IMG/VR virus record: IMGVR_UViG_3300025705_000008
Coordinates: 1 to 45,195 of that record
Reading direction: 5' to 3' (one strand)
Source of the DNA: a virus
Length of the DNA stretch: 45,195 nucleotides
Positions 12,078 through 31,303 of the stretch are shown here, piece by piece (positions within the stretch are counted from its first letter, which is position 1; each line of letters starts with the position of its first letter). Made by a program: the position numbers and the translations under genes. Below the pieces are notes generated by a model. That model was given only the letters and a program-made list of their open reading frames with translations. It was not told the DNA's origin and did no database searches.

Positions 12078-12242
12078 ATGGCAAAAATTGCAGAAACTAC
12101 AGTAGTAATTAAAGCCAGTAGACTGGTTAGAGACGATGAGCAAATATTAGCACCACTGGACGAAGGTCTACTTGATCAGCTATCAGCTATCGTACAAGAA
12201 TTGGCAGGTGAAGGTACACTTGTAGAGATCATTAAGGAATAA
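12078..12242 (+). CDS. Small conserved late phage protein
   Basis: 54 residues, acidic, with 'DDEQILAPLDEGLLDQLSAIVQELAGEGTLVEI'. I recall short proteins of this type next to virion genes in T4-like marine phages; function unknown. A strong 'aaggagaagg' site precedes the ATG. First gene of the late structural block and 3 nt from the next gene. Confidence 0.65.
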   Translation: MAKIAETTVVIKASRLVRDDEQILAPLDEGLLDQLSAIVQELAGEGTLVEIIKE

Positions 12243-12245
12243 GAG

Positions 12246-13757: not shown

Positions 13758-13758
13758 A

Positions 13759-15138
13759 ATGAGTAATCTTAATCCACCAAAGTTACTGAGTGTTGGGATA
13801 CAAGTACAAGGAATAACAGCATACTGGGCTGCAAGCACTCCACAAAAAGATATTGATGGCAATGCCAAACAGTGGCGTTTAGAAATGAACGTCAATGCAC
13901 AACTACACAGTGGTGTTGAAAGTACAGTCCCTTTTCAGTATGACGGCAGAAACATTGCAGTGGGCGACTACGTTGCCACTGGTGCCAATGGATTAATTTT
14001 ACGTATTGATGCAATTGAAAGTGCCAATGTAAGTACAGTTGTTTGTTTAGCAAGTGACGAAGATAGACTCAACGCACTTATGGATCAAACACAGTTTGGT
14101 GACGGAAGTATACTGGAAGGTCCTGGTATATGTTTTGAAATAGAAAACCAAATGCCAGTGCTGTTCCCATTACCAAGTGTATTGCCAGCAGGATTTAGTC
14201 GTGGGTTTGCTACACAGATACTCAGCAGATTTTTACTGCGTGAAAAACGAGACACATTAACTATTGAACAAGCCGGACATGGGCTTGCAAAGAAACAAGC
14301 AGTTGTTTTAAACAATACTGGACAGTATCAAGCTGTTGATTATACAGCGGCTGATGCTACAATGACCAAACGTATTATTGGTATTGTTGAAGAGCCAAAA
14401 TGGCCAACAGACGATCACTTCCGTATGCGTACAGTTGGACCAATTGTAGACATTATGTTGGGCGGCAATCCTGGTACTCTTTATTTTGTAGACCCAGCAA
14501 GTACAACTGGACAATTGTATCACTTAGACCCCAACAGCGCACAAGCAGCCAGTACTACTGCTGACCCAGTATACATTGTTATTGATGATCACAGAGCAGT
14601 ATTTTTTGCCAGCGGATTAGTAGACAATACCAGTTCAACACAGGCATTTATAGTAGGAAATCAAACTGAATTACTTGCACTAGCACCAGGGCCAGGAGAT
14701 ACAGCATTTGTTATAGACAGTGGTAATCCACTAGGGCCAGGCGAATGGGCATATTACATTTATCAGGGCGGTGGATGGAAAGCACTCAGTACACAAGATG
14801 GCGGTGGTGCAGACAGTCAAACCAGTTATAAGGCTATAGTAACACACAACGGAATGAACACAGTTAATATACATCGTGTAGACCATAATGTAAGAGTACT
14901 CAATGTAAGTATTGAAGTTACCACAGCATTTAATGGCGGCGCTACATTAACAGTGGGCGATAATAATAATTTTACAAGACATATGACCGCAGATGAGAAC
15001 GATCTCAGTGAAGTAGGAACATACTACAGTTTTCCAAATCATTTATACAATGAAGCATCGGAAATTCATGTTAGTGCTTTTTTGAATAAAGGTGCAGCCA
15101 CTGTGGGCGAAGCAGAGGTTTTGATCACCTATGCATAA
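13759..15138 (+). CDS. Large virion/fibre-associated protein
   Basis: 459 residues. The N-terminal domain ('PPKLLSVGIQVQGITAYWAA') and middle region ('ATMTKRIIGIVEEPKWPTDDHFRMRTVGPIVD') are not of a family I can name. The last ~95 residues form a beta domain with 'VLNVSIEVTTAFNGGATLTVGD' that is also found, diverged, at the C-terminus of the next gene. Shared C-terminal modules suggest interchangeable tips or trimerisation domains. The stop codon lies within the next late promoter. Confidence 0.65.
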   Translation: MSNLNPPKLLSVGIQVQGITAYWAASTPQKDIDGNAKQWRLEMNVNAQLHSGVESTVPFQYDGRNIAVGDYVATGANGLILRIDAIESANVSTVVCLASDEDRLNALMDQTQFGDGSILEGPGICFEIENQMPVLFPLPSVLPAGFSRGFATQILSRFLLREKRDTLTIEQAGHGLAKKQAVVLNNTGQYQAVDYTAADATMTKRIIGIVEEPKWPTDDHFRMRTVGPIVDIMLGGNPGTLYFVDPASTTGQLYHLDPNSAQAASTTADPVYIVIDDHRAVFFASGLVDNTSSTQAFIVGNQTELLALAPGPGDTAFVIDSGNPLGPGEWAYYIYQGGGWKALSTQDGGGADSQTSYKAIVTHNGMNTVNIHRVDHNVRVLNVSIEVTTAFNGGATLTVGDNNNFTRHMTADENDLSEVGTYYSFPNHLYNEASEIHVSAFLNKGAATVGEAEVLITYA

Positions 15139-15166: not shown

Positions 15167-16618
15167 ATGGCACTTATTAAACAGTTTGGGCTAGCAGGTG
15201 TATACGAAAACGTTCAGTTCGGCAAGGGCAACGGACGTATTAAGTTTGACCAATCAGCGAACGCATTTCTTGTACGCAACTTAGCTGACTCAAGTTTAGT
15301 CAACGCCCGAGTTGCTGAACCAGTAAATGATAGCGATGCGGCTACAAAATTTTATGTTGACAGCGTAGCACAAGGACTTGACCCCAAGGAAGCAGTTGTT
15401 GCGGCAACAAACACAATAACAACAAACATAGACGGTGACGTTTCAGGACCCATAGTTAATGATATGTTAAACTTAACATACATTACTAATGATGATAAAT
15501 GGACACTAAGTGGCGGCGTAATTGACGGTGTAACACTAACAACTAACGACCGTGTATTAGTTAAAGATGCTACTGGTGCTGACGCAGTTGGTAATGGTAT
15601 ATTTGTATTTGCCGCAGGTGAGCTAACCCGTTCAACTGACGCAGACAATGATATAGCAGGAACACAAAACGAAATCGGCGGCGGTACATTTGTATTTGTG
15701 ATAGGCGGTACAGTATGGGAAAACAGTGGATGGGTTGTAACATCACCAAAAGCCACAGCCGTACTAAAAACAGACGACATTTTATTTGCACAGTTTAGTC
15801 GTGTTACTGGCATATATGCAGATGACGGCCTTGGAAAATCTGGCAATAAAATATATGTTAGAACAGATGGAACAACCACACATATTGACAACGACAATGT
15901 GTCGGTTAAAAGTAGCACAACACAATACCAATCATTAGTAAGTGATGGCGCTGGCGGCACAGCCAATTGGAGCGCAATCAGTTTAAATGAAGCAGATGCT
16001 ACACAAAACACACTACTACGTTCACGTGGTGGTTTTGGTGCAGATGCCAGTGCATTTGCTGACCAGAGTATATATCTTAGTAACTTAACAAGTAACACCA
16101 CTACAGAACTAAGCGTTGGTGCAGCCAACACTGTATTACGTGTTGACGCCAACGGTGTCTTAAGTTACGGAACAGTTGACTTAGCTAACAGTGTATCAGG
16201 TATTTTACCTATTACAAAGATCAGCACAGGCACAGGCGACAATCAACAAGTTATTACCACTAATAGTGGTGCTAATGTTTGGACAGATGTAACTGAACTT
16301 AAAGGATTAGAAGCTTCTAGACAAGTAGCATTTAATTCAAGTTCTGTATCAATTGGTGCAGCTTTACCAGCAAACGCAAGAGTTACAAGTGTAAAAGTAT
16401 CAATTACATCAGCGTATCAAGCATCAACATCAATTATTGTTGGAGATGCATCTGATCCAGACGCATTAGTAACAGCAGATGAGATAGATCCAACTGTAGT
16501 TGGAATTTATCAAATTGATCTAATGCATCATTATGTAAACAGTACACAAACTATCTTAGCAGTATCAAACTCAGGCAGTGGTACTGGATATGTAATGTTA
16601 ACATACATTTTAGATTAA
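15167..16618 (+). CDS. Tail-fibre-like virion protein
   Basis: 483 residues. N-terminal 'FGLAGVYENVQFGKGNGRIKF' and 'DSDAATKFYVDSVAQGLDPKEAV' are typical of marine phage fibre proteins; the 'AATKxYVD' motif recurs widely in them. The middle is repetitive and Thr/Ala/Gly-rich. The C-terminal domain ('ARVTSVKVSITSAYQASTSI' onward) is homologous in layout to the end of the previous protein. A long open frame on the opposite strand here is a shadow. Followed by a hairpin and another late promoter. Confidence 0.75.
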   Translation: MALIKQFGLAGVYENVQFGKGNGRIKFDQSANAFLVRNLADSSLVNARVAEPVNDSDAATKFYVDSVAQGLDPKEAVVAATNTITTNIDGDVSGPIVNDMLNLTYITNDDKWTLSGGVIDGVTLTTNDRVLVKDATGADAVGNGIFVFAAGELTRSTDADNDIAGTQNEIGGGTFVFVIGGTVWENSGWVVTSPKATAVLKTDDILFAQFSRVTGIYADDGLGKSGNKIYVRTDGTTTHIDNDNVSVKSSTTQYQSLVSDGAGGTANWSAISLNEADATQNTLLRSRGGFGADASAFADQSIYLSNLTSNTTTELSVGAANTVLRVDANGVLSYGTVDLANSVSGILPITKISTGTGDNQQVITTNSGANVWTDVTELKGLEASRQVAFNSSSVSIGAALPANARVTSVKVSITSAYQASTSIIVGDASDPDALVTADEIDPTVVGIYQIDLMHHYVNSTQTILAVSNSGSGTGYVMLTYILD

Positions 16619-16623
16619 ACTAG

Positions 16624-16642
16624 GCTTTTTTATTAAAAAAGC
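16624..16642 (+). terminator. AT-rich hairpin between fibre gene and late promoter
   Basis: GCTTTTTT (16624-16631) and AAAAAAGC (16635-16642) form an 8-bp stem with an ATT loop, right after a stop codon. There is no U tract after it, so it may be a processing or 3'-end-stabilising hairpin instead of a terminator. The next late promoter begins on its last base. Confidence 0.5.
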
Positions 16643-16649
16643 ATAAATA
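16642..16649 (+). promoter_or_regulatory. T4-type late promoter (CATAAATA)
   Basis: CATAAATA; predicted start near 16655. The transcript would begin within two bases of a GCGC/GCGC hairpin (16657-16660 with 16666-16669, AATAG loop). Confidence 0.78.
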
Positions 16650-16694
16650 AAAGTAAGCGCAATAGGCGCAGAACCATATTTTAGGAGAATTATT

Positions 16695-16952
16695 ATGGCT
16701 TTAACAACAGCAGCAAAAGGTCAAGCAGGTAACGGACTTGGCGGACGCACACAAATCGTATCAGCACCAGTAGCAAACCAGACTGAGTATGACGCAATCA
16801 TCGAAGGCTTCGGCGCAACAGGTACAGTAGCAGGCGCAGACGGCGCACACGGTGGAACAGTACACTTTGCAATTCAGCAGACAGCTGACGTTGCAGGCAC
16901 AGTTGCAGCTATCACTGTAACAGCAGTTTGTGACTTCAAAGATAACGTATAA
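16695..16952 (+). CDS. Small Gly/Ala/Thr-rich virion protein (putative)
   Basis: 85 residues, rich in Gly, Ala and Thr ('GAGNG', 'GATGTVAGADGAHGGTVHF', 'DVAGTVAAITVTAV'), probably all-beta, with codons noticeably richer in G and C than neighbouring genes, as in highly expressed genes. 'ttaggag' precedes the ATG, and it has its own late promoter and its own strong terminator, making it a single-gene late unit. A minor capsid, decoration or fibre component is plausible; no family is recognised. Confidence 0.65.
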   Translation: MALTTAAKGQAGNGLGGRTQIVSAPVANQTEYDAIIEGFGATGTVAGADGAHGGTVHFAIQQTADVAGTVAAITVTAVCDFKDNV

Positions 16953-16973
16953 TACGTAATTTTTAGTTAAATT

Positions 16974-17003
16974 AAAATAGGCGCCTAGTGCGTCTATTTT
17001 TTT
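16974..17003 (+). terminator. Intrinsic terminator
   Basis: AAAATAGGCGC (16974-16984) pairs with GTGCGTCTATTTT region (16990-17000; one G-T) giving an 11-bp stem with a 5-nt loop, followed by a T run. Ends the 85-residue gene transcript just before a new promoter. Confidence 0.8.
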
Positions 17004-17023
17004 GACTTTTTTTAAAAAAAGGC

Positions 17024-17052
17024 TTGACTTTAGTGTTAGGATGTATTATATT
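17024..17052 (+). promoter_or_regulatory. Sigma70 promoter of the noncoding RNA
   Basis: TTGACT (17024-17029), 17-nt spacer, TATATT (17047-17052). No palindrome in the spacer, unlike the early-gene promoters. No gene with a ribosome site follows for 400 nt, so it most likely drives the RNA at 17058-17384. Confidence 0.78.
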
Positions 17053-17057
17053 AAAGA

Positions 17058-17384
17058 CATAAGTTAGGAGATATCCTAAGTTAGATAGTGCAAGGAATGG
17101 CGGTCCGTAGAGGTCGTAACTTGATTCATAGCTGTGGTGGCAATGCAAGAGCGTAGAGATACGAAGTTGTATTTTTAGACGTAACTGTTTAATATGAAGT
17201 TCCCGGATTTGAGCGTGGCTCTACAGAAGGGTTGTTGGTATTCACAGAGTCCAACCTATCACATTATTATAAACTTGACAGTAATCGGATTACAGTCAGA
17301 CCAGTTTTAGATAAGAACTTGACTGGAGATAAGAAATACAAATACAAGAAATGACAAACCCACCATTGGTGGGTTTTGTTTTTT
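17058..17384 (+). ncRNA. Putative structured noncoding RNA (~325 nt)
   Basis: A 510-nt gap between late virion genes holds a sigma70 promoter, this stretch, and a strong intrinsic terminator. It has no credible coding frame, its base composition is more GC-balanced than the surroundings, and it contains several local hairpins: TTAGGA/TCCTAA with a GATA loop near the 5' end, CGTA/TACG closed by a GAGA tetraloop (about 17152-17163), GAGC/GCTC (about 17211-17221), GGTTG/CAACC (about 17230-17255), a near-perfect TGACAGTAATC inverted repeat (about 17276-17298) and CCAGT/ACTGG (about 17300-17326). I cannot match it to tmRNA, RNase P RNA or 6S RNA. The RNA call rests on promoter, terminator and lack of coding; the family is unknown. 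Confidence 0.65.
17357..17384 (+). terminator. Strong intrinsic terminator of the ncRNA
   Basis: AACCCACC (17357-17364) and GGTGGGTT (17368-17375) form a perfect 8-bp GC-rich stem with an ATT loop, followed by TTGTTTTTTT. Confidence 0.92.
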
Positions 17385-17392
17385 AATAAATA
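17385..17392 (+). promoter_or_regulatory. T4-type late promoter (AATAAATA)
   Basis: AATAAATA directly after the ncRNA terminator. Predicted start 17398, which is exactly the first base of the first leader hairpin. Confidence 0.78.
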
Positions 17393-17397
17393 CAAAC

Positions 17398-17450
17398 ATA
17401 AGTGATACTTATCGACAGCAACCTTAGGTTGACTGACAGTGGAAACACTG
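17398..17450 (+). promoter_or_regulatory. Triple-hairpin 5' leader of a late virion mRNA
   Basis: Three consecutive hairpins fill the leader: ATAAGT/ACTTAT (17398-17412, GAT loop) starting at the predicted +1; CAACC/GGTTG (17419-17431, TTA loop), extendable by CAG/CTG across one bulge; and CAGTG/CACTG (17437-17450) closed by a GAAA tetraloop. 'ggag' and the ATG at 17464 follow. It may stabilise the mRNA or control translation; no known riboswitch is recognised. Confidence 0.7.
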
Positions 17451-17463
17451 AACGGAGTACAAA

Positions 17464-18150
17464 ATGGCAGTAACACAGAACCTGAAGGGCACAAGCTACC
17501 CTTCTTTTAAAATTCAGAAGGCTGGACCTACCTTATACCAAGGGTCAATTACCCCCGCATTATCAGCAGTTAACGGAGACATGTATCTACAGCATGGCAG
17601 TGAAGGCTCAGTATGGGTATACAACAACGAATGGACTAGAATTGAAACTGATATCAATGATGCAATTGATAACTTTACCATTTACAACAGTACAATGGCC
17701 ACCAGTAAAAATGTTAGTCATGTATTATGGGGAGAGACCACTGATGGTAATGAAACAGAATTATCCCCCAGTTCAAGTTTTGGTATAGACACAACCACAA
17801 CTACTATTGATAGTATAGCAGTAACCACAGACCAAGGGTCAGCAATTGGACAGATTCATATACCAACTGACACCGCTGGATTAGTGGAAGCTCGTTTTAT
17901 TGCGAGAGATGCAGACAACAATGACCATGCAGGGTATGTTATACGTGGTGTAATTACCAATGATAGTGGAAGCACAACACTACTAACTAATCCAGTGGAA
18001 GAAATTATTGGCGAGAGTATTAATTCTTGGTATGCACTGATAGCCGCAGACGATGCAACTGATTGTTTAAGTATTAGAGTAAGTGGCGAAAATGGTAAAA
18101 CTATTAAATGGACAGCGTTTGTAAACTTAACATTGGTCACAAAGACTTGA
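17464..18150 (+). CDS. Virion/fibre-associated protein
   Basis: 228 residues. The N-terminus 'LYQGSITPALSAVNGDMYLQHGSEGSVWVYNNEWTRI' resembles the GDMYL-type turns of marine phage fibre proteins. The C-terminal ~130 residues are beta-rich ('AGLVEARFIARDADNNDHAGYVIRGVI', 'CLSIRVSGENGKTIKWTAFVNLTLV') and look like a receptor-binding or trimerisation domain. Own late promoter with an unusual triple-hairpin leader. The stop codon overlaps the next late promoter. Confidence 0.68.
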   Translation: MAVTQNLKGTSYPSFKIQKAGPTLYQGSITPALSAVNGDMYLQHGSEGSVWVYNNEWTRIETDINDAIDNFTIYNSTMATSKNVSHVLWGETTDGNETELSPSSSFGIDTTTTTIDSIAVTTDQGSAIGQIHIPTDTAGLVEARFIARDADNNDHAGYVIRGVITNDSGSTTLLTNPVEEIIGESINSWYALIAADDATDCLSIRVSGENGKTIKWTAFVNLTLVTKT

Positions 18151-18156
18151 TAAATA
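18149..18156 (+). promoter_or_regulatory. T4-type late promoter (GATAAATA) with SD-hiding hairpin
   Basis: GATAAATA overlapping the upstream TGA stop. Predicted start 18162. CTCCT (18157-18161) lies just before the start and is complementary to AGGAG (18167-18171), the ribosome site of the holin-like gene, so only read-through RNA could hide the site. Confidence 0.8.
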
Positions 18157-18178
18157 CTCCTAGTAGAGGAGAGAAACT

Positions 18179-18529
18179 ATGAACACAAACAGTATTTGGT
18201 GGACAGCACCGGAGTACTTTAGCAGATGGAGACTATTCCCAAGAGCATTTATTACAATGTACATTTACCTACTGTATAAGACAGTAATTTGGTTCCAGGA
18301 CCTACCAGCACCAACTATGGAACAAGCTGGTCTAGTAAGTGTAATTGTAGGCGCAGGCGCCGCTTGGTTTGGATTATATGTTAACAGTACTAGCAGTAAA
18401 TTTAGTGGTGTACAAGTAGACACAACACAAACAGGCAGTATGCCAACTCAGAAAAGCAGTACATCAGTGACACCAGTTGAAGCTGAAGCAGACGATGAGC
18501 CAGTAATTATTAGACGAAAAAGGGCATAA
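18179..18529 (+). CDS. Holin-like membrane protein
   Basis: 116 residues. 'WWTAPEYFSRWRLFPRAFITMYIYLLYKTVIWF' is a first membrane helix after an amphipathic N-terminus; 'AGLVSVIVGAGAAWFGLYVNS' is a second. The C-terminal ~50 residues are polar and end with basic 'RRKRA'. I recall this layout, including 'SRWRxxPRAF' and 'GAGAAWFGLYVN', in proteins annotated as holins in marine myoviruses. It would form the inner-membrane lesion that lets endolysin out. It is under late control, which fits. Confidence 0.75.
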   Translation: MNTNSIWWTAPEYFSRWRLFPRAFITMYIYLLYKTVIWFQDLPAPTMEQAGLVSVIVGAGAAWFGLYVNSTSSKFSGVQVDTTQTGSMPTQKSSTSVTPVEAEADDEPVIIRRKRA

Positions 18530-18531
18530 CA

Positions 18532-19098
18532 ATGCATTATATACGACTATTGACAAGTGAAGAATTAGAAGAAACACAAATGGTATCTTGGTACAACACC
18601 GTAATGCGGTTTGCACCAGTTAATACTGTAGTGGTTGATGACGATGACTCACTTGACGATATGTTGGAAGTGGAAGAAGAAGTAGGGGATGAAGGCTTCC
18701 CCTACGTCTACATTGTAGAGCTACGCAGAGACTTAATTGCTCGTGAAGCAGAATTTATTGTAAGTGCATGGGACATGCGTTATGATAATGATTATGAAAT
18801 AGAAACAAGTAACTTGTATCGTCCAGATGCAGACATTCAACACCCATTTGATATCGAAATGGAAGATGAAGTACATCAGAATATACAACTTGAAGCCGCT
18901 AAGTTTTTGCACAACCGTTGGGTGGAAGCAAAGAACTTGGACGGATGGCGTTATGGTACACGCCTAAATATACAAGAAAAAAGTCATCCAGCAATGCGTG
19001 ATTGGGATAATTTAAGCGAAGCATATCGCAAATATCCAACAATGACTAAAACAGAAGCATTGGATTTTTACACAAAGTACCGTCACCTTTTTAATTAA
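18532..19098 (+). CDS. RyR-domain protein
   Basis: 188 residues. The C-terminal part 'EAAKFLHNRWVEAKNLDGWRYG' followed by 'KSHPAMRDWDNLSEAYRKYP' matches the RyR domain consensus (H..W...K..GWxYG......K.HP....W..L), a small module named from ryanodine receptors and found in phages and bacteria; a nucleotide-ligand role has been discussed for the family. The acidic N-terminal half is unrecognised. Two nucleotides after the holin-like gene, so co-expressed late. Confidence 0.78.
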   Translation: MHYIRLLTSEELEETQMVSWYNTVMRFAPVNTVVVDDDDSLDDMLEVEEEVGDEGFPYVYIVELRRDLIAREAEFIVSAWDMRYDNDYEIETSNLYRPDADIQHPFDIEMEDEVHQNIQLEAAKFLHNRWVEAKNLDGWRYGTRLNIQEKSHPAMRDWDNLSEAYRKYPTMTKTEALDFYTKYRHLFN

Positions 19099-19103
19099 AC
19101 CTC

Positions 19104-19132
19104 TTGACATCTTGTAAAATTTACGCTATACA
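19104..19132 (+). promoter_or_regulatory. Sigma70 promoter with 11-bp inverted repeat
   Basis: TTGACA (19104-19109), 17-nt spacer, TATACA (19127-19132). The spacer has the perfect inverted repeat GTAAAATTTAC (19114-19124), different from the 14-bp element but matching in size and offset the one at 36849. Confidence 0.8.
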
Positions 19133-19164
19133 GTAAATAAGCTAAATTTACTCAGGAGCGTATA

Positions 19165-19551
19165 ATGCTAACTACATCTCAAAAAGAATTTCGTGCAAAA
19201 GAATTACAAGCCCGTGTACAAGGTTTGTATCGTGCTAGTCAACTACCACGAGGATCCGGCTTAACATATTATTATATGTGTCCAAAAAACAAAGCAAAAG
19301 ATATAGTAGAAGTAGCATATCTTGCCTATGCACTGCTACTTACAAAATTATGTAATTCAACACAAACCAATACACTGCTAACAGTAATCGCAACCATGTG
19401 TGAGGAACGAGGTGTACTTCCAATCACCGGAACCGCAAAGCAAAAAGATCTTGCAAAACGTATTTTAATGCACACTAAAAATCGTTCATCAGAAAAAGTT
19501 ATGCACCGTTCATTCTTTGGAGAATATCCAGTAAGTGCTCATTTAATGTAA
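19165..19551 (+). CDS. Hypothetical protein, basic
   Basis: 128 residues, basic, mostly helical, unrecognised. 'YYYMCPKNKAKDIVEVAYLAYALLLTKLCNS' is a moderately hydrophobic stretch but probably not a membrane helix. 'caggag' precedes the ATG. Single-gene unit between two sigma70 promoters; likely early. Confidence 0.62.
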   Translation: MLTTSQKEFRAKELQARVQGLYRASQLPRGSGLTYYYMCPKNKAKDIVEVAYLAYALLLTKLCNSTQTNTLLTVIATMCEERGVLPITGTAKQKDLAKRILMHTKNRSSEKVMHRSFFGEYPVSAHLM

Positions 19552-19568
19552 AAAAATTACTTTTTTAG

Positions 19569-19597
19569 TTGACAACCAAGACGCTTTACCGTATAAT
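19569..19597 (+). promoter_or_regulatory. Sigma70 promoter with operator-like site
   Basis: TTGACA (19569-19574), 17-nt spacer, TATAAT (19592-19597). CCAAGACGCTTTAC at 19576-19589 is the fifth copy of the 14-bp element, 15 kb from the other four, at the same offset. Confidence 0.87.
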
Positions 19598-19622
19598 AGT
19601 AGTATATTGTTAGGAGACACTT

Positions 19623-19847
19623 ATGAATTATCTAGTCACAGAACCCGGTTTAACTATTTTCAACTTTGCACAAAAAATTACAGCATCGCAGTACCAACTT
19701 GCACAGCAAGTATTCGGCTCAGATGCGTTCATTGCTGTGCCTTATACACGCAAGCAACAGCAAGCAATCCGTGCAAACTTCCCTAGTAAATTTACACATA
19801 CCTTTACTACAAAACAAACTACTAATTTGTTGCAATCATATGTTTAA
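19623..19847 (+). CDS. Small hypothetical protein upstream of UV endonuclease
   Basis: 74 residues, unrecognised, basic in its second half ('YTRKQQQAIRANFPSKFTHTFTTKQT'). 'ttaggag' precedes the ATG. It overlaps the UV-endonuclease start by 8 nt, so it may serve to couple translation of that gene. Confidence 0.6.
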   Translation: MNYLVTEPGLTIFNFAQKITASQYQLAQQVFGSDAFIAVPYTRKQQQAIRANFPSKFTHTFTTKQTTNLLQSYV

Positions 19848-20865
19848 TCAAAACGTACAGCGTGTAGGATTTGCATGCAAGTACATGCACCCAGACCAGA
19901 CACAAAAGCCAAAAATACTTAAAGAAGTACAAGGTGCTTACAGTGAACGCAGTACTACTATCACATGGCTTAACAATCAAAAGCAATCAGTAGCAGAAGA
20001 TAAACTGTGGTTTTGTTTGGATACTAACTGGCAAAATGCATATCGTCTGATTGAGTATGTGGGTAACTTACCACAAGGTCAGCGTATGGTACGATTGGGC
20101 AGTAATATGATGCCTGCGTATACACACAATGACTGGGCTTGGTTTTACAAACAGAGCGATGTACGAGATGCCGCAGCCAAAGGCTGGGCGCAAGTGGGAG
20201 AGCTAGCACGTAAACTTGATGTGCGTGTAAGTATGCACCCTGGTCAATTTACTGTATTGGCAAGTGACAATCCAGAAATAGTAAATAGAAGTATAGAGGA
20301 GTTCGAGTATCATGCGGATATCATCAGGTGGATGGGTTACGGTAAAAAGTGGCAAGACTTCAAGTGTAACGTCCACATCTCAGGACGTCAAGGTCCAGCC
20401 GGTATCAAAGCCGTCCTTCCAAGACTGTCTACAGAAGCACGAAACTGTATCACTATTGAAAACGACGAAAACGCCTGGGGTCTCGAAGCTAGCCTAGAAC
20501 TAGAAAACGATGTTGCACTGGTGTTGGATATACATCATCATTGGTGTCACAGTGGAGGAGAATACATTGACAGAACTGACGATCGCTGTAAACGTATTAT
20601 TGACAGTTGGCGTGGTGTACGTCCTAGTATGCACTACAGCGTCAGTCGTGAAGACTTGCTGGTTGATCATCCAATGGATCAAAAGCCTGACTTCCAAAGA
20701 CTATTAGAACAAGGCTACAAGAAAGCAAAACTACGAGCGCACAGTGACTACATGTGGAATACGGCAGTCAATGAATGGGCTAGCACGTTTCGTAATGACT
20801 TTGACATTATGGTAGAAGCAAAGTGCAAAAACTTGGCAAGTATTCCGTTTGAAGAAAGTATGTAA
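19840..20865 (+). CDS. uvdE: UV-damage endonuclease (UvdE/UvsE family)
   Basis: 341 residues from the ATG at 19840. TIM-barrel UV-endonuclease motifs occur in order: 'GFACKYMHP', 'MVRLGSNMMPAYTHNDW', 'VSMHPGQFTVLASDNPEI', 'CNVHISGRQG', 'ITIENDENAWG', 'LDIHHHWCH', 'MHYSVSRED', 'LRAHSDYMWN' and 'VEAKCKN', supplying the His, Glu and Asp metal ligands. These enzymes nick 5' of UV photoproducts and some abasic sites, starting alternative excision repair. A sun-exposed surface-water phage would benefit. The start lies inside the upstream small gene and has no strong ribosome site, so coupling is likely; the stop overlaps the GIY-YIG gene. Confidence 0.92.
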   Translation: MFNQNVQRVGFACKYMHPDQTQKPKILKEVQGAYSERSTTITWLNNQKQSVAEDKLWFCLDTNWQNAYRLIEYVGNLPQGQRMVRLGSNMMPAYTHNDWAWFYKQSDVRDAAAKGWAQVGELARKLDVRVSMHPGQFTVLASDNPEIVNRSIEEFEYHADIIRWMGYGKKWQDFKCNVHISGRQGPAGIKAVLPRLSTEARNCITIENDENAWGLEASLELENDVALVLDIHHHWCHSGGEYIDRTDDRCKRIIDSWRGVRPSMHYSVSREDLLVDHPMDQKPDFQRLLEQGYKKAKLRAHSDYMWNTAVNEWASTFRNDFDIMVEAKCKNLASIPFEESM

Positions 20866-21440
20866 TGATTTTATATCTTAAAACACATAATGTTACAGGT
20901 ATGAAGTATCTTGGACAAACAACTAGAAATCCATACAAATATGAGGGATCTGGTGTTTATTGGCGCCGGCACATAGAGATGCACGGCAATAATGTAACAA
21001 CTGAAATACTTTACCAAAGTGACAACCAAGACAATTTTAAAAAGGTTTGTATAGACTACTCAGCAAAATTTGATGTTGTTAATAATAAAATGTTTGCAAA
21101 TCTAGTTGAGGAACATGGAAATTCACTTGGTGGTAAAGCTAATCCCAACTACAAGACTGGCATGTATACAGGGCGTTTAGATAATCCTGAACTATATAGA
21201 CAGTTAGACAGAGATCGTCATTCTGCACAATGGGATAATAAAAAAGAACACACACACCCTAGGATGAACTTCTTTCATCATAAACGTATGGGCAATAAAG
21301 AACGTGCTGAATACTATTGGAATATATGGTACAACATGGCTCCTAAGAAAAGTAATAATCGACAAGCACTCTGGAAAACAGATACATTTGAAATGTGGTA
21401 TAATCGTAAAGGCAACGATTTGGACTTTAGAGAGAAATAG
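20865..21440 (+). CDS. GIY-YIG endonuclease-like protein
   Basis: 191 residues. The N-terminal 'ILYLKTHNVTGMKYLGQTTRN' followed by 'YEGSGVYWRRHIEMHGNNVTTEIL' matches GIY-YIG nuclease domains of the Seg/homing type in T4-like phages. The C-terminal half is basic and aromatic-rich ('HHKRMGNKERAEYYWNIWYN') and may bind DNA, including a short NUMOD-like stretch around 'NPNYKTG'. Start overlaps the uvdE stop (TAATG). May be a free-standing homing endonuclease, or a repair partner of UvdE. Confidence 0.78.
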   Translation: MILYLKTHNVTGMKYLGQTTRNPYKYEGSGVYWRRHIEMHGNNVTTEILYQSDNQDNFKKVCIDYSAKFDVVNNKMFANLVEEHGNSLGGKANPNYKTGMYTGRLDNPELYRQLDRDRHSAQWDNKKEHTHPRMNFFHHKRMGNKERAEYYWNIWYNMAPKKSNNRQALWKTDTFEMWYNRKGNDLDFREK

Positions 21441-21447
21441 AACTAAT

Positions 21448-21717
21448 ATGATCAATAGAGTTACCCCATCACAATTAGCTGATCTGGCAATGCACATAGA
21501 TCAGGTTGATCCTATTGATTGGGGAATGTTAAGTATAAAAGAAGAAGATGCATATCTAATGATGGCACAACAAGTGTTGGATATGATTAGAGAAATTGAA
21601 GATGACAAGCAACTATTGGTTGCTGCTGCAAGTTTAACAAAACTAACTGTGGAGAACTTTGTGCTTAATACTCAACTATATCAAAATACAACTTTGAGTC
21701 CTGATAAGCATAAATAA
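21448..21717 (+). CDS. Conserved small phage protein
   Basis: 89 residues from the ATG at 21448. 'RVTPSQLADLAMHIDQVDPIDWGMLSIKEEDAYLMMAQQVLDM' and 'LTKLTVENFVLNTQLYQ' are helical and resemble short conserved proteins of T4-like marine phages. Function unknown. Last gene of the early island; its stop codon overlaps the next late promoter. Confidence 0.65.
   Translation: MINRVTPSQLADLAMHIDQVDPIDWGMLSIKEEDAYLMMAQQVLDMIREIEDDKQLLVAAASLTKLTVENFVLNTQLYQNTTLSPDKHK
21709..21716 (+). promoter_or_regulatory. T4-type late promoter (CATAAATA)
   Basis: CATAAATA overlapping the upstream stop; predicted start 21722. TCCTG (21699-21703) and CAGGG (21724-21728, part of the ribosome site) could pair with the promoter in the loop (one G-U). 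Confidence 0.77.
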
Positions 21718-21737
21718 TAGCAACAGGGGATTTTGAT

Positions 21738-23420
21738 ATGGCAAAACAAGATTTAAATTTAGGCGCCACACCTAACGATGGTACAGGCGATCCACTCCGT
21801 GATGCAATGGACAAAGTTAATGATAACTTTCTTGAAGTTTATAATGCATTGGGCGGAAGCACACCAACTACCATTGTCAACAGTGGACAACTAGAACTAA
21901 CAGGTTCTAACAAAATTACATTTTTATATGCAGACTTAGCATCATTACCATCAGCATCAAGCTATCATGGAATGTTTGCTCATGTACACGCTACTGGAGG
22001 AGCATACTATGCTCATGCAGGAAGCTGGTTAGAATTAGCAAATAAATCAACAATGGATGCACTTACTACCAGTAGTTTAACTGACGTAAGTAGCACGGCA
22101 CCAAGTACTGGACAAGTTTTAAAATGGGACGGTTCAGAATGGGCACCAGCCGCAGACAGCGCAGGTAGTTCACTTGGAGCAGATGCAATTACAGCAGGCA
22201 TGATTGCTGAAAATGTTGTAACAACTAGAGAAATTGCAGCAAACACAGTTGCCGTGGGCGACTTGGCTACCAATATTAGCATAGACTTTTTAGCAGACGT
22301 AGACACGACTACCGTTACCCCAGCGGCCGGTCAAGCTCTTGTTTGGTCAGCATACAACAAATGGGAACCAGCTACAGTTGCTAGTGGTAGTTATGCTAAC
22401 AGCGATGTTGACACACACCTAAACGTAAGTGGCGCATCAAGCGGACAAATACTAAGTTGGAATGGAACTGACTATGCATGGGTAGCAGACCAAACTGGTG
22501 GTGGTGGTGGAACACCTGGCGGCTCTGACACACAAGTACAATACAACAACAGCGGCGCATTTGGTGCAGAAGCTGACTTTACATACAACGCAAGTACCAA
22601 CACATTAACAGTGGTTAACTTAGTTGCAACTAATATTACTGCAACTGGTTCTGGCACACAGACAATTAGTGCTGGTGCTAACATCGAACTAGATGCAACA
22701 AACCGTGTACTAGTTACAGACACACCATTTAGGTTAGCAAGTTTTACAACAACTACACGTAATGCTATTGCAAGTCCTGTAAATGGTGATATGATTTACA
22801 ATACTACAACTAACCAATTAGAGAGTTATGAAAACAGTTCTTGGGTAGCGACAGCTGGATCTGCTGGCGGTGCAACTAGTGTCAATACTGCTGGTAACAC
22901 AGGAACAGGTAGTGTAACTTTTGCAAGTGAAACATTAACAGTAACTGGTGCAACAGGACAAATTAATGTTGATGCTGCTGGATTTGCGCTAAGTTTAAGT
23001 TTAGATGCAGACCTAACCAGTTTAACAACTATTAATACGCATACTATACCAAGCGGCACAGGTACATTAGCACTAACAAGTGATATTCCTGCAGACAACA
23101 CCCCAACATTTGCTGTAACAGCACCAGATAGTGGACGTTATACGTTTAACGGTGCAGGTACTGATGGTGATGACAACGCAACATTATATCTATATCGTGG
23201 ATTTACATACAAATTTGCAGTTAATAGTTCAGGACATCCTTTCCATATTCAAACATCAAGTGGTGCTTACAATGCTAGTAACTTGTATACTGATAATGTA
23301 ACAAATCCTGGAACACAAAGTGGTACTATTACTTGGACTGTGCAAATGGATGCACCAAGTACATTGTATTATGTATGTCAATATCACAGCGCAATGGCTG
23401 GCACAATTAATATTGTTTAA
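21738..23420 (+). CDS. Tail fibre protein with C-terminal cupredoxin-like domain
   Basis: 560 residues. The N-terminal 'NLGATPNDGTGDPLRDAMDKVNDNFLEVYNAL' is a classic attachment segment of marine phage fibres. The middle is repetitive (Thr/Ala/Gly-rich, with 'GQVLKWDGSEWAP' and 'GQILSWNGTDYAW' repeats). The last ~100 residues look like a cupredoxin: 'GRYTFNG', 'LYRGFTYKFAVNSSGHPFHI', 'SGTITWTVQMDAPSTLYYVC'. Candidate type-1 copper ligands are His500 (or His503), Cys547, His550 and Met553, giving the C-x2-H-x2-M spacing of amicyanin and pseudoazurin. The domain may have a structural, adhesive or copper-binding role. Confidence 0.78.
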   Translation: MAKQDLNLGATPNDGTGDPLRDAMDKVNDNFLEVYNALGGSTPTTIVNSGQLELTGSNKITFLYADLASLPSASSYHGMFAHVHATGGAYYAHAGSWLELANKSTMDALTTSSLTDVSSTAPSTGQVLKWDGSEWAPAADSAGSSLGADAITAGMIAENVVTTREIAANTVAVGDLATNISIDFLADVDTTTVTPAAGQALVWSAYNKWEPATVASGSYANSDVDTHLNVSGASSGQILSWNGTDYAWVADQTGGGGGTPGGSDTQVQYNNSGAFGAEADFTYNASTNTLTVVNLVATNITATGSGTQTISAGANIELDATNRVLVTDTPFRLASFTTTTRNAIASPVNGDMIYNTTTNQLESYENSSWVATAGSAGGATSVNTAGNTGTGSVTFASETLTVTGATGQINVDAAGFALSLSLDADLTSLTTINTHTIPSGTGTLALTSDIPADNTPTFAVTAPDSGRYTFNGAGTDGDDNATLYLYRGFTYKFAVNSSGHPFHIQTSSGAYNASNLYTDNVTNPGTQSGTITWTVQMDAPSTLYYVCQYHSAMAGTINIV

Positions 23421-23429
23421 GGAAGTATA

Positions 23430-25061
23430 ATGAGTGAAAGAGAGTATATCGTAACACTGAATGTAGGTGTAGACTATGCAGCATTTAATGCTGAAATGAT
23501 TGAAGAAACTGGAGCAGGCGACATTCCAAATCGTACTGTTGAAGTAACTAATGCTAGACCTATTTCACAACGTAATACACACTACTCATTAACTGACGAA
23601 GAAGCAGTTGATCTTGCTCAAGATTCCAGAGTAGCTGGTGTTGAAATCCCACCTGATCAAAGAGACGATCTTGATATAGGATTTGACGCAGTTCAAACTG
23701 GAGATTTTACAAAAACCAACAGTGACAGTGGAGTTTACTTAAATTGGGGGATGCGTAGATGTGCAACCACTACAAACGACTACAACACAGGCAACACAGT
23801 AAGCGGCGACTATGAGTATAATTTAGACGGTTCCGGTGTTGATGTAGTTATTCATGATAGTGGACTACATGTTGATCATCCTGAGTTTCAAGATGCAGAT
23901 GGTGTAAGTAGAGTGCAACAAATTGACTGGTATACTGAAAGTGGTGTAAGTGGAACACAAGATGCCAATCACTACAGAGACCAGCACGGACACGGCACAC
24001 ATGTTGCTGGTACAGTAGCAGGTAAAACTTATGGATGGGCTAAAAATGCTCGTATATACGCAATAAAAGTCAGTGGACTTGAGGGTACTGGTGATAGTGG
24101 TACTGGTATTCCAATAAGTGATTGTTTTGATGTAATCAAAGGTTGGCACGATAATAAACCTATTGATCCAGCTACTGGATATAAGCGTCCAACTATTGTA
24201 AACATGAGTTGGGGGTATAGTAATACTAATACATATGAGCCATATGATGGTTACTATAGAGGAACACAGTGGACATACGACAATAATAATTCTGGCGTTG
24301 CTACAAATTTAACAACATCAGCACAACTACAAAATCGAACTGGGCTACCATTATGGAATTCTTATTCTGATGGAAACGCTCGTAAACTGAATACACGTAT
24401 TACCAGTGTTGATAATGATGTACAAGAACTAATAGATGCTGGTATACATGTTTGTATTGCTAGTGGTAATAGAAACTTAACAATTGATGTAAGTGGCGGT
24501 CCAGATTATGATAACAGATACAGAGTAAATCCATTTGGAACTCCAGGCGGTTATATCTATTATTGTAGAGGCAGCAGTCCTTTTAGCAATGATGCGTTTA
24601 TGGTAGGAAATGTAGATAGTGCAACTAACAGCAATGATGATTTAGAGCAAAGAGCATCCAGTAGTAACCATGGACCGGGTGTAGATATATATGCTCCTGG
24701 TACACGAATTATGAGTGCATGCAGTAACACAAATGAAATAGGCGGTCAAGACTATAATATAGATAGCAATTATAAACAAGCTAATATAAGTGGAACTAGC
24801 ATGGCAAGTCCACAAGTTTGTGGTGTAGGCGCACTGGCACTTCAAGTTAATCCACACATGACTCCAGCACAGCTTAAAACATTTTTGCACAATCAATCAC
24901 AATCAGGTAAACTAAGAGAAGATGCAAACTATTCTAATTGGACCATTGCTGATAGTGATTATAGTAGTTCATCATCAGCTAGATATATAGCTGGCGCACC
25001 TGACAGATTTTTATATAGTCCATATCCTGGACAATACAAGTTTAGAATTCAAAACACCTAA
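23430..25061 (+). CDS. Subtilisin-family (S8) serine protease
   Basis: 543 residues. Residues 1-75 resemble an I9-type propeptide ('EYIVTLNVGVDYAAFN', 'DLAQDSRVAGVEIPP'). Catalytic triad: Asp143 in 'VIHDSGLHVDHPEF', His188 in 'GHGTHVAGTVAG', Ser457 in 'SGTSMASPQVCG'; oxyanion Asn347 in 'IASGN'. No secretion signal is visible. It lies 9 nt after the cupredoxin-tipped fibre gene in a late unit, so it is probably a virion-associated protease that clears host surface proteins or matures fibres. Confidence 0.93.
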   Translation: MSEREYIVTLNVGVDYAAFNAEMIEETGAGDIPNRTVEVTNARPISQRNTHYSLTDEEAVDLAQDSRVAGVEIPPDQRDDLDIGFDAVQTGDFTKTNSDSGVYLNWGMRRCATTTNDYNTGNTVSGDYEYNLDGSGVDVVIHDSGLHVDHPEFQDADGVSRVQQIDWYTESGVSGTQDANHYRDQHGHGTHVAGTVAGKTYGWAKNARIYAIKVSGLEGTGDSGTGIPISDCFDVIKGWHDNKPIDPATGYKRPTIVNMSWGYSNTNTYEPYDGYYRGTQWTYDNNNSGVATNLTTSAQLQNRTGLPLWNSYSDGNARKLNTRITSVDNDVQELIDAGIHVCIASGNRNLTIDVSGGPDYDNRYRVNPFGTPGGYIYYCRGSSPFSNDAFMVGNVDSATNSNDDLEQRASSSNHGPGVDIYAPGTRIMSACSNTNEIGGQDYNIDSNYKQANISGTSMASPQVCGVGALALQVNPHMTPAQLKTFLHNQSQSGKLREDANYSNWTIADSDYSSSSSARYIAGAPDRFLYSPYPGQYKFRIQNT

Positions 25062-25075
25062 CACAGGAGGTTGCT

Positions 25076-25453
25076 ATTAAAATAGGAACTATATTCTCTG
25101 AGGCTATTTCGGATATTGTATCTGGTAAAGTAGACCCCACACAAGTAATAATGATATTTGATTATTCAGGTTATAATTACGAACACAGTGATGATTGGGA
25201 AGAGTGTTGGAGTTATAACAGTCAACCCAGTGGACACTGGTATAACTTGGACAAAGACAGTGTTTGGAAAGCTATTGACGAATTAATGTTTGATAGAAAA
25301 ATACATCGTTATGAATGTATGCAACCAGCCTGGCGCTTTCCCTGGATGGATTTAGTAATTCCCAATGATTATCTTGATGATATTCCACAACTACGTGAGA
25401 TGTGGGAAGATTATCAAGTATTAGCTAAATTAGCTACTCCTGCATATAAATAG
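25076..25453 (+). CDS. Conserved phage protein, probable ATT start
   Basis: 125 residues if translation starts at ATT 25076, giving 'KIGTIFSEAISDIVSGKVDPTQVIMIFDYSGYNY'. A perfect AGGAGG lies 5 nt upstream of that ATT, whereas the first ATG (25151) has no ribosome site, and the frame before it reads as normal protein. The rest is acidic and Trp-rich ('DDWEECWSYNSQPSGHWYNL', 'PAWRFPWMDLVIPNDY'). Function unknown. ATT starts are rare and tuned by IF-3. Its stop codon lies in the next late promoter. Confidence 0.62.
   Translation: MKIGTIFSEAISDIVSGKVDPTQVIMIFDYSGYNYEHSDDWEECWSYNSQPSGHWYNLDKDSVWKAIDELMFDRKIHRYECMQPAWRFPWMDLVIPNDYLDDIPQLREMWEDYQVLAKLATPAYK
25445..25452 (+). promoter_or_regulatory. 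T4-type late promoter (TATAAATA) with 5'-terminal hairpin
   Basis: Perfect TATAAATA. Predicted start 25458 is the first base of hairpin GTTGC/GCAAC (25458-25472, AATTA loop). Downstream ATTTATA (25481-25487) is complementary to the promoter itself. Confidence 0.85.
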
Positions 25454-25501
25454 TAACGTTGCAATTAGCAACTGAGTGAAATTTATACAGAGGAGAAGCA
25501 A

Positions 25502-25828
25502 ATGTATCATCACAGTGAATCAATGGTCGCTATGTGCGAAGAGTTACAACGCCAAGCCGACCAAATGGAAAAAGAAGTTAAAATGATGTTGGAAATGGAA
25601 GGCCGTGCATGGGGTATTGAATTAGACAGACGCAAAAATGCAAGAGCTCTAATGGAAGAACTATCTACACACCAAGCAAGTAGCGAACTTCCACAAATGA
25701 CTTGGGCATATGTTCCTGAAGAAAAAATTGAATACGATACATCAATGCCGGATGATTATGTGCCAACTGCATATGATAACCAAAGAATGGCTGAATCTGG
25801 CACTACGCCAAATGCAGATCCAGCATAA
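25502..25828 (+). CDS. Small acidic late protein
   Basis: 108 residues: helical, Met/Glu-rich first half ('CEELQRQADQMEKEVKMMLEMEG', likely coiled coil), acidic Pro-containing tail. Own late promoter and 5' hairpin with a strong 'gaggag' site, so it is probably abundant. Context (just before two virion genes) suggests a head or tail component or a chaperone for one. Not recognised. Confidence 0.65.
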   Translation: MYHHSESMVAMCEELQRQADQMEKEVKMMLEMEGRAWGIELDRRKNARALMEELSTHQASSELPQMTWAYVPEEKIEYDTSMPDDYVPTAYDNQRMAESGTTPNADPA

Positions 25829-25831
25829 ATA
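25824..25831 (+). promoter_or_regulatory. T4-type late promoter (CATAAATA) with 5'-terminal hairpin
   Basis: CATAAATA overlapping the upstream TAA stop. Predicted start 25837 is the first base of hairpin AGTCC/GGACT (25837-25851, ATTAA loop); a second hairpin GGGGT/ACCCC follows at 25856-25869. Confidence 0.83.
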
Positions 25832-25855
25832 TTACTAGTCCATTAAGGACTTTAT

Positions 25856-25915
25856 GGGGTACCAACCCCGTAGACTTAGAACGTCAAGGAGAAAACAAAT
25901 GGGAAGACCACTAAA
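25856..25915 (+). repeat. 60-bp perfect direct repeat, copy 1
   Basis: Identical to 26413-26472. Contains the GGGGT/ACCCC leader hairpin, the AAGGAG ribosome site and the first codons (MGRPL) of the virion gene that follows. Confidence 0.93.
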
Positions 25916-26360
25916 GGCATCAAAAACAGTTAATGGAGTTGCAATTTTAGGTGCAATTGGCAAAGCTTCAGAACCAGGCGAACAGTTAAAAATGAGTGCA
26001 TTTGTCACAGGCGGTAGCGCATTAGATACAAATGACATTGTACAAAAAGGCACACACCGTTTCCGTTGCACAACAGCTGATGGCACAGAAATATGCACAC
26101 TAGTTGCAAAAGCACCTGGTGCTCTTGTAGCAGGAGAGTGCTGTCTGGTGGCAGCAGATCAGCAGGGAGACACATACTATGTAAGTCGTATTAGTGCTAA
26201 CTGGATTGAAATTGGTGCATTGGGCACAGGTTCACAGGTTGCAGTAGGCGATCGTGTACAGTGGGTTAGGGCAACAGCACCAGCACTAACAATCTATACT
26301 GACACATATCCTGTTGGTTCAGTAGAACAGCCAGGCAGATTCCAAATGAGGACATCATAA
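25899..26360 (+). CDS. MGRPL-type virion protein, paralogue 1
   Basis: 153 residues from the ATG at 25899 (AAGGAG 7 nt before); an in-frame ATG at 25854 lies inside the leader hairpin region and is not used by the paralogue. Sequence resembles the 'MGRPL' structural proteins frequent in T4-like marine phages: 'FVTGGSALDTNDIVQKGTHRFRCTTADG', 'GTEICTLVAKAPGALVAGECCLVAADQQGDTYYVSRISANWIEIG'. It is clearly paralogous to the next gene, aligning at 'IVQKGTHRFRC' and 'IVRQKGSKRFVC'. Likely a small, high-copy virion component. Confidence 0.72.
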   Translation: MGRPLKASKTVNGVAILGAIGKASEPGEQLKMSAFVTGGSALDTNDIVQKGTHRFRCTTADGTEICTLVAKAPGALVAGECCLVAADQQGDTYYVSRISANWIEIGALGTGSQVAVGDRVQWVRATAPALTIYTDTYPVGSVEQPGRFQMRTS

Positions 26361-26379
26361 TTTTTGCATGATGCAAAAA
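26361..26379 (+). other. AT-rich perfect hairpin after paralogue 1
   Basis: TTTTTGCA (26361-26368) and TGCAAAAA (26372-26379) form an 8-bp stem with a TGA loop, directly after the stop codon and touching the next late promoter. There is no U tract, so termination is doubtful; it may protect the 3' end. Confidence 0.6.
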
Positions 26380-26385
26380 TAAATA
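26378..26385 (+). promoter_or_regulatory. T4-type late promoter (AATAAATA) with 5'-terminal hairpin
   Basis: AATAAATA. Predicted start 26391 is the first base of hairpin GATAACA/TGTTATC (26391-26407, ATA loop), followed by the shared GGGGT/ACCCC hairpin (26413-26426). Confidence 0.82.
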
Positions 26386-26412
26386 ATATTGATAACAATA
26401 TGTTATCTTATG

Positions 26413-26472
26413 GGGGTACCAACCCCGTAGACTTAGAACGTCAAGGAGAAAACAAATGGGAAGACCACTAAA
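26413..26472 (+). repeat. 60-bp perfect direct repeat, copy 2
   Basis: Identical to 25856-25915; covers leader hairpin, ribosome site and first codons of the second MGRPL gene. Sequence upstream of each copy differs, and so do the genes after codon six. Confidence 0.93.
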
Positions 26473-26914
26473 CAAAAGATTCTTTGCTAAAGCTGATGTA
26501 GGACCAACAGCGGCAGGCGAAGAAATTAAAGTAAATTTTCACAACGGAAGTGGAGTAAAAGAAGGCTTTATTGTGAGACAAAAAGGATCTAAAAGATTCG
26601 TATGCTCAGCACTAGACGTACAAGATACTGAACACACATGTACACTAGCAACTGGTAAACTACCATCGGCACTAGCAGCAGGTGAAATGACTATTTCATT
26701 CAAAATGGACGATGGCGAAACATACACAGTGAGTAAAATTGCTGGACGTAGAGTTACACTATCAGCACCAAGTGCTACAGGCACAAATAAGCATGATGGC
26801 GCAAGTGTTCCATGGGGCTTTGGCAACTATACTGATCAAGCACAAGTTGAAGAAGCTGGTGATGACGATGTTGCTGCTGGCACAGACGACGACGATTTCG
26901 CAGAAGATGCATAA
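26456..26914 (+). CDS. MGRPL-type virion protein, paralogue 2
   Basis: 152 residues. 'MGRPLNKRFF' start, 'EIKVNFHNGSGVKEGFIVRQKGSKRFVCSALD', 'CTLATGKLPSALAAGEMTISFKMDDGETYTVSKIAGRRVTLS' and an acidic tail ('AGDDDVAAGTDDDDFAEDA'). I recall this family, including 'VPWGFGN' and the acidic tail, as a virion protein of T4-like marine phages. Same 60-bp leader as paralogue 1. Confidence 0.76.
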   Translation: MGRPLNKRFFAKADVGPTAAGEEIKVNFHNGSGVKEGFIVRQKGSKRFVCSALDVQDTEHTCTLATGKLPSALAAGEMTISFKMDDGETYTVSKIAGRRVTLSAPSATGTNKHDGASVPWGFGNYTDQAQVEEAGDDDVAAGTDDDDFAEDA

Positions 26915-26940
26915 GTCATAAAGTTTAATAAAAACTTATA

Positions 26941-26979
26941 CCCTTTACTATTGGATAAATACATCTATATAGTAAAGGG
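26941..26979 (+). promoter_or_regulatory. Late promoter inside an SD-sequestering hairpin
   Basis: CCCTTTACTAT (26941-26951) is a perfect complement of ATAGTAAAGGG (26969-26979). The loop holds the late promoter GATAAATA (26954-26961), with predicted start 26967. The 3' arm contains AAAGG, the ribosome site for the ATG at 26987. Read-through RNA would hide the site; late RNA lacks the 5' arm and leaves it free. This is the logic described for T4 gene e. Confidence 0.83.
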
Positions 26980-26986
26980 TTTTATT

Positions 26987-31129: not shown

Positions 31130-31303
31130 ATGAAAGTACATGACATTATAAAAGAAACAGTTTCAGGTTCATTTGCCTCAAGTATGGGAAATGGAAATGG
31201 TTTTGCGAACGGTGGTCCAGGCACAATAAGTCGCCAGGGTAAAGTTAAGAAAAAAACCAAAGAAACAGCAAGTAAACTAATCAAAAGGGTTCCGTCAGAA
31301 TGA
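31130..31303 (+). CDS. Small capsid-targeted protein candidate
   Basis: 57 residues. 'MKVHDIIKETVSGSFASSMGNGNG' has a capsid-targeting-like start with I-K-E before a possible cleavage point; the remainder is Gly/Asn-rich then basic ('RQGKVKKKTKETASKLIKR'). After cleavage this would be a small basic internal head protein. The predicted late transcript starts on its ATG. The stop overlaps the next gene (ATGA). Confidence 0.65.
   Translation: MKVHDIIKETVSGSFASSMGNGNGFANGGPGTISRQGKVKKKTKETASKLIKRVPSE

Follow-up and report, generated by a model that had tools for sequence, protein, structure and literature searches.

We analysed the 45,195 bases of an IMG/VR virus record (the window) and found that every late promoter in it with a long leader is followed by a predicted RNA hairpin at or just after the predicted transcription start, and that two of these leaders are copies of the freshwater-2 RNA (RF02980). 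The hairpin observation in the window is real and statistically strong. In our best explanation, on which our confidence is evenly divided, the promoters are T4-type late promoters with a TATA box of the gp55 class and would be used by a gp55 polymerase; the long late leaders, from a start predicted from that box, open with a hairpin that we infer protects the end of the mRNA and keeps the ribosome site open; and freshwater-2 would make up the whole 5′ leader in a family of late genes, here called MGRP, of uncultured T4-superfamily phages.

Hairpins at the predicted late start sites

The heptamer ATAAATA occurs 14 times in the window, 14 times on the + strand and never on the − strand, and its copies lie mostly shortly upstream of a Shine-Dalgarno sequence (SD) and an ATG, which marks them as T4-type late boxes; the full TATAAATA late box is present at two of the 14 sites only, 25446 and 6178. 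Since the T4 late TATA box occupies −13 to −6 (A at −13; PMC2988020), transcription is predicted to start (+1) at the sixth base past the motif. When perfect Watson-Crick stems of at least 5 base pairs (bp) with loops of 3–8 nucleotides (nt) were scored, a stem of 5–7 bp was found exactly 5 nt after the motif at four sites (17386, 25446, 25825 and 26379). A first-pass annotation of this DNA, whose promoter coordinates fall one base upstream of the heptamer, had reported an inverted repeat at this spacing for four promoters, and all four stems were recovered. In 1500 dinucleotide shuffles of the same 60-nt segments, scored at 16 offsets, the mean was 0.086 stems at the 5-nt offset, and four never occurred at any of the 16; the binomial P for four stems was 1.4e-6, or 2e-5 when corrected for the 16 offsets. 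The annotation had also placed a fifth stem within two bases of this position, and at 16643 we did find a 4-bp GCGC/GCGC stem whose base lies 2 nt further downstream, at +3.

The window follows an exact rule of leader length. From +1 to ATG, the leader measures 40–66 nt at the five hairpin sites and 0–25 nt at the other nine; every late promoter whose leader is 40 nt or longer has a predicted hairpin at +1 to +3, and the nine with leaders of 25 nt or less have no such stem there, because leaders this short leave no room for one. The stem base lies within a few nt of the predicted +1 at all five sites and, in relatives, at 0–5 nt from it, sometimes more.

The window encodes a gp10-like baseplate protein (21738–23420), which is a T4-type tail gene, and a family-B DNA polymerase (37691–40333), a T4-type replication gene whose best matches are the T4-superfamily jumbo phages Phosso, Atu_ph07, CBB and GAP32 (44–50% identity). 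The region 16500–26600 had no near DNA match among 50,697 phage records. An ATP-dependent protease of 740 amino acids (aa; phrog_4871, E 8e-248) is encoded among the late genes at 9078–11300. At the late promoter at 31118, the predicted +1 is the A of the ATG of a 57-aa open reading frame (ORF; 31130–31303), and its transcript may be a late mRNA without a leader. Another late promoter, at 26955, sits in the loop of a terminator-like palindrome at 26938–26980 (CCCTTTACTAT...ATAGTAAAGGG, then TTTT).

Freshwater-2 RNA as a probable late leader

Both freshwater-2 matches in the window span the full model (1–84), which begins with the base of stem 1, and predicted minimum-free-energy folds of 25837–25901 and 26391–26458 contain all three of its hairpins; the leaders at 16643, 17386 and 25446 gave no match to the model. 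Its layout is a variable stem 1, a UAUGSGG/CCSCGUA stem 2, a short stem 3 with a UAGAAC loop, AAGGAGAAAA and the start codon ATG. The two copies are near-identical from UUAUG into the coding sequence and have unrelated stem 1 sequences, and so suggest a duplication with stem 1 exchanged for another sequence that still pairs.

Viral contigs were searched with a DNA pattern that covers the 3′ half of freshwater-2 and includes neither promoter nor stem 1, and at least 120 of them contained it. Among the matches listed, 102 distinct leaders (from uncultured phage contigs) had enough upstream sequence, and NTAAATA lies upstream in 101 of these, as ATAAATA in 75 and CTAAATA in 15. A protein-based search with the product of 26456–26914 gave the leader and NTAAATA at 33 of 33 loci (58–100% identity), some of the leaders carrying changes in the RNA core. 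Freshwater-2 was present, in one copy each, in 10 of 12 large records (124–374 kb), seven of the 12 having been picked for already carrying it or its gene. A scan of seven cultured phages gave sub-threshold matches only, the best of which (HTVC008M, E 0.018) lies within a late leader with a hairpin. The link between freshwater-2 and late promoters appears to be new in the literature compared, the original description of freshwater-2 apart.

The gene after freshwater-2 nearly always begins MGRP (rarely MARG, MANG or MARP), and its products, of 109–521 aa, are strongly diverged. The family matched no Pfam or PHROGs family and had no tblastn match in cultured phages; a profile search of eight named phages, which had no positive control, was empty. 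The AlphaFold model of the copy-2 protein is beta-rich (predicted local distance difference test score, pLDDT, of 86) and gave no confident fold match in the PDB, and its significant structural matches in BFVD are to uncharacterised viral (phage) proteins only, two of them from Agrobacterium phage Atu_ph07.

Stem 1 was counted when its base lay within 8 nt of the motif and its 3′ end within 2 nt of UUAU. A stem 1 of at least 5 bp was present by this count in 39 of 58 short-class freshwater-2 leaders, relative to 13.7 in shuffled sequences, with 32 different 5′ arms. In most freshwater-2 leaders its 3′ end abuts stem 2 with a gap of 0–2 nt, and its start lies mostly 4–10 nt after the motif, with modes at 5 and 8. 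We conclude that stem 1 is anchored to the next predicted hairpin, near the predicted transcript start, and that its distance to the motif is not constant. Outside freshwater-2, the gene starting at 16695 has leaders in contigs L218, L228, L232 and L020 that retain a hairpin at +3 to +5 built from unrelated arms; pairing arms in this family are GCGC/GCGC, GCGG/CCGC and GCAC/GTGC. Homologs of the 17386 and 25446 leaders turned up in near-identical contigs only. Selection for structure is thus supported, because orthologous leaders keep a 5′-proximal stem while its sequence is replaced and because hairpins are in excess in related phages (see below). The first-pass annotation had argued for such selection from stems that differ in sequence at a constant position, always 5 nt from the motif; the replacement of paired arms upholds the argument, but the constancy fails, both on the spread of offsets and on the nine of 14 window sites that have no stem at that spacing.

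Other structured RNAs were also seen. A manA RNA (RF01745) at 17064–17265 of the window (E 5e-8; 43.5 bits, below the gathering score of 55.2) immediately precedes the 17386 late promoter. With a sigma70-like promoter on one side (TTGACT-N17-TATATT near 17025), an intrinsic terminator on the other (17355–17383) and no ORF of at least 80 aa, it resembles a standalone RNA rather than a leader. In three other phages, a manA RNA stands immediately before the freshwater-2 late leader, which makes the two a recurrent neighbour pair. A freshwater-2 phage contig, L126, carries a Polynucleobacter-1 RNA (RF01718, 85 bits) at 13720–13854 on the − strand, which may indicate the host, or that this RNA comes from phages. 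In contig L235, a glutamine riboswitch aptamer (RF01739, 49.7 bits; 2666–2713) begins about 6 nt past a CTAAATA box, and therefore may also be a late 5′ leader.

Long late leaders of other phages

For the survey of other phages we took [AC]TAAATA where an SD, an ATG and an open frame of 60 codons or more followed within 120 nt and the leader measured 42 nt or more up to the ATG, and folded the 30 nt from +1, counting hairpins of −4 kcal/mol or below as stable; freshwater-2 leaders were excluded. In the first set, made of loci in hand, 24 of 41 leaders had stable hairpins, and the mean was −4.72 kcal/mol versus −2.48 for shuffled sequences. With an essentially identical script, six whole uncultured phage records gave 17 of 31 relative to 5.5 expected; as this set overlaps the first in part, it is a partial replication only. 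Among named phages, stable hairpins were found in GAP32 (6/9, 1.2 expected), HTVC008M (4/9, 1.1 expected), Syn9 (3/4, 2.0 expected), Atu_ph07 (4/13, 1.6 expected) and five cyanophages (6/19, 2.6 expected). Pooled over 15 phages without T4, 40 of 85 long late leaders had stable hairpins compared with 13.6 for shuffled sequences, and the same cut-off was reached by 125 of 800 motif copies without a gene and by 105 of 434 segments upstream of motif-less genes. The excess was greatest for folded segments that start 5 nt past the motif. A first survey of ATAAATA in gp10-related loci, in which no downstream gene was required, gave no clear excess at offset 5, because gene-less motif copies dilute the signal. 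Stems at the predicted +1 were found in the leaders of the HTVC008M tail sheath gene (66785) and of the Syn9 gene annotated as encoding the major head protein (154359). The wider excess of 5′-end hairpins in late leaders appears to be new in the literature compared.

A second family-like late leader, about 90–98 nt long, opens with a long hairpin (e.g., ctatt-AATGCAGTAACAGCGACCATTGTTCTGCAG) and had no Rfam match over the leader at gathering score. Its members are given with the other features in Table 1.

Table 1. Coordinates of late leaders, freshwater-2 copies and associated features
Feature	Position	Strand	Details
16643 late promoter and leader	ATAAATA 16643-16649; leader region 16643..16697	+	Predicted +1 16655; hairpin GCGC-AATAG-GCGC at +3; SD AGGAG; ATG 16695; 85-aa protein
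17386 late promoter and leader	17386..17466	+	Predicted +1 17398; stem ATAAGT/ACTTAT (6 bp) at +1; further hairpins CAACC/GGTTG and CAGTG/CACTG; SD ACGGAG; ATG 17464; 228-aa protein
25446 late promoter and leader	25446..25504	+	Predicted +1 25458; stem GTTGC/GCAAC (5 bp) at +1; SD GAGGAG; ATG 25502; 108-aa protein
25825 late promoter and leader	25825..25901	+	Predicted +1 25837; stem 1 AGTCC/GGACT (5 bp) at +1
Freshwater-2 RNA (RF02980), copy 1	25836-25901	+	cmscan 51.5 bits, gathering 49.9; predicted fold: stem 2 UAUGGGG/CCCCGUA, stem 3 GAC-UUAGAAC-GUC; SD AAGGAG; ATG 25899
MGRP-family gene, copy 1	25899..26360	+	153 aa
26379 late promoter and leader	26379..26458	+	Predicted +1 26391; stem 1 GATAACA/TGTTATC (7 bp) at +1
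Freshwater-2 RNA, copy 2	26391-26458	+	cmscan 54.8 bits, gathering 49.9
MGRP-family gene, copy 2	26456..26914	+	152 aa; small beta-rich fold, acidic tail
manA RNA beside freshwater-2	L235 2950-3159 (G013); G014 12227-12433; G012 89473-89673		
Second leader family	L119:9467; L144:4139; L153:7031; L171:8373; L191:12670; L235:9530		

Possible roles of the hairpins and known systems

RNA pyrophosphohydrolase (RppH) and RNase E favour 5′ ends that are single-stranded, and mRNA is stabilised by structure at its 5′ end (PMC3997798), so that stabilisation by a 5′ stem is plausible here from the precedent in Escherichia coli. We propose that a hairpin would form at the late transcription start, or a few nt after it, and would leave too little single-stranded end for RppH and for 5′-tethered RNase E; it would also prevent the leader from pairing back on the ribosome-binding site. 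A late leader no longer than 25 nt may do without a hairpin, as the initiating ribosome would cover its 5′ end. Consistent with an open ribosome site, the SD is predicted to be 75–87% unpaired in four of the five window leaders, the exception being 17386, and the SD of freshwater-2 is more open than in shuffles (0.61 versus 0.49, P 4e-6). As freshwater-2 carries two more hairpins and conserved sequence, 5′-end protection would not be its whole function; stem 2 and stem 3 with its UAGAAC loop probably add translational control specific to the gene, and we expect them to have a binding function. The first-pass annotation had proposed that the stems stabilise the mRNAs of abundant virion proteins, a claim that is unproven, the products being small proteins without known function.

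We suggest, tentatively and with rather less confidence than for our best explanation, a general rule of late-mRNA protection, by which long leaders across the T4 superfamily (in Pelagibacter phage, cyanophages, jumbo phages and many uncultured phages, not in T4) would open with a 5′-end hairpin, freshwater-2 being a dedicated and widely conserved version that would also control one late gene family.

Several results weigh against protection of the 5′ end or against its generality. T4 itself had stable hairpins in two of five long leaders versus 1.5 expected, none of them at +1. Strict perfect stems at exactly +1 were weakly enriched in the 15 other phages (3/85, P 0.06), and on this count the exact +1 register is rejected as a general rule. 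When 5 upstream bases were allowed, 27 of 47 stable hairpins extended above +1 and 13 began at +1 to +5, both classes exceeding controls; since so many reach above +1, the earlier excess of first pairs at +1 was partly an edge effect, and the general claim must read "near the 5′ end" rather than "exactly at +1". In the shortest freshwater-2 leaders (11–15 nt before UUAUG), stem 1 has 3–4 bp or is missing, and the common offsets of 8–9 would, with +1 at offset 5, leave 3–4 unpaired nt, which is enough for RppH in principle. End protection gives no account of the conserved stems 2 and 3. The 17386 stem alone is weak (−1.3 kcal/mol), and in the full leader the fold containing it (−15.8) is nearly iso-energetic with one that pairs the SD (−16.2); for this reason it could be a switch or an insulator instead. 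Moreover, a 2010 review recorded the role of RppH in T4 mRNA decay as uninvestigated (PMC3014915).

The leading alternative, although we judge it unlikely, is that freshwater-2 acts mainly in translational control, with a protein (perhaps MGRP itself, or another phage or host protein) binding stem 2 and the UAGAAC loop and stem 1 serving as an aid to positioning or folding. Sequence is conserved in the UUAUG/CGUAG flanks of stem 2, in the UAGAAC loop and in the AAGGAGAAAA region though the proteins have diverged to 25–30% identity, stem 1 abuts stem 2 in most leaders, the Rfam class of the RNA is cis-regulatory, and there is a precedent in T4 gp43, which binds to an operator hairpin of its own message (PMC3014915). 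The conservation is in part a selection effect, as the search pattern held part of the core, but protein-selected loci show it without that bias. However, the SD is not sequestered in the predicted freshwater-2 fold, and translational control leaves unexplained the hairpins of other phages and those at 16643, 17386 and 25446, which have no freshwater-2 core.

Insulation, in which the hairpin would hold the 5′-terminal bases of a long leader so that they could not pair with the start codon or the ribosome-binding site, half-life being unaffected, seems to us improbable. It would account for the open SDs described above and for the 17386 stem, which occupies the same bases that otherwise pair with the SD; yet openness could be a by-product of compact folds, and insulation alone does not favour a stem at the 5′ end over a stem elsewhere in the leader. 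Far less probable still is a role of the inverted repeats in DNA or during initiation (promoter escape, a nascent hairpin in the exit channel, or gp55 displacement) rather than in the mature mRNA: their position is tied to the promoter and not to the start codon, and several palindromes cross +1 in other phages, but late promoters with short leaders have no repeats and stem 1 is also anchored to RNA stem 2. Coincidence, in which intergenic hairpins chance to follow a few promoters, could draw on the four of 14 sites, on their choice by a pattern-seeking reader and on the few strict +1 stems elsewhere, but is very improbable and already disfavoured by the shuffle P of about 2e-5, by ortholog stems replaced yet still pairing, by the covariance-model matches and by the repetition of the pattern in other genomes with the same script.

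Among the closest known systems is freshwater-2 itself, whose full model, three hairpins and conserved core the two window leaders share. It was reportedly described from metagenomes with no assigned organism. Its Rfam entry says only that it is cis-regulatory, whereas here it lies at the predicted 5′ end of T4-type late transcripts, before one phage gene family. An orphan RNA thereby gains an owner (T4-superfamily phages), a place in the transcript (the 5′ end of late mRNA) and a gene family as its target, and its function becomes open to direct test.

The T7 gene 10 leader has a 5′ stem-loop at +1 of the capsid mRNA, which is reported to raise stability. It is likewise a late phage message that opens with a stem at the first transcribed base, but the promoter is one for T7 RNA polymerase and the initial sequence is common to class III promoters, whereas the window has gp55-type promoters and a different stem at each gene. 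The 5′ stems of E. coli ompA and papA (Emory, Bouvet and Belasco) place a hairpin at the start or within a few nt of it, before an unstructured ribosome-binding site, a layout also predicted for the window, and the principle of the stabilising 5′ stem is itself already known; the window differs in that the stems precede phage late genes, follow several promoters of one genome, are unrelated to each other and have a putative stabilising role. Our results suggest that, in phages whose late programme is of the T4 type, the 5′ ends of late mRNAs are shaped by the phage; the T4 literature compared says nothing on this (PMC3014915). The hairpin of the T4 gene e early transcript is also a leader structure of the T4 superfamily tied to a late promoter (PMC3014915), but its logic is the opposite: in gene e the late start removes an inhibitory stem, whereas in the window the late transcript would open with one.

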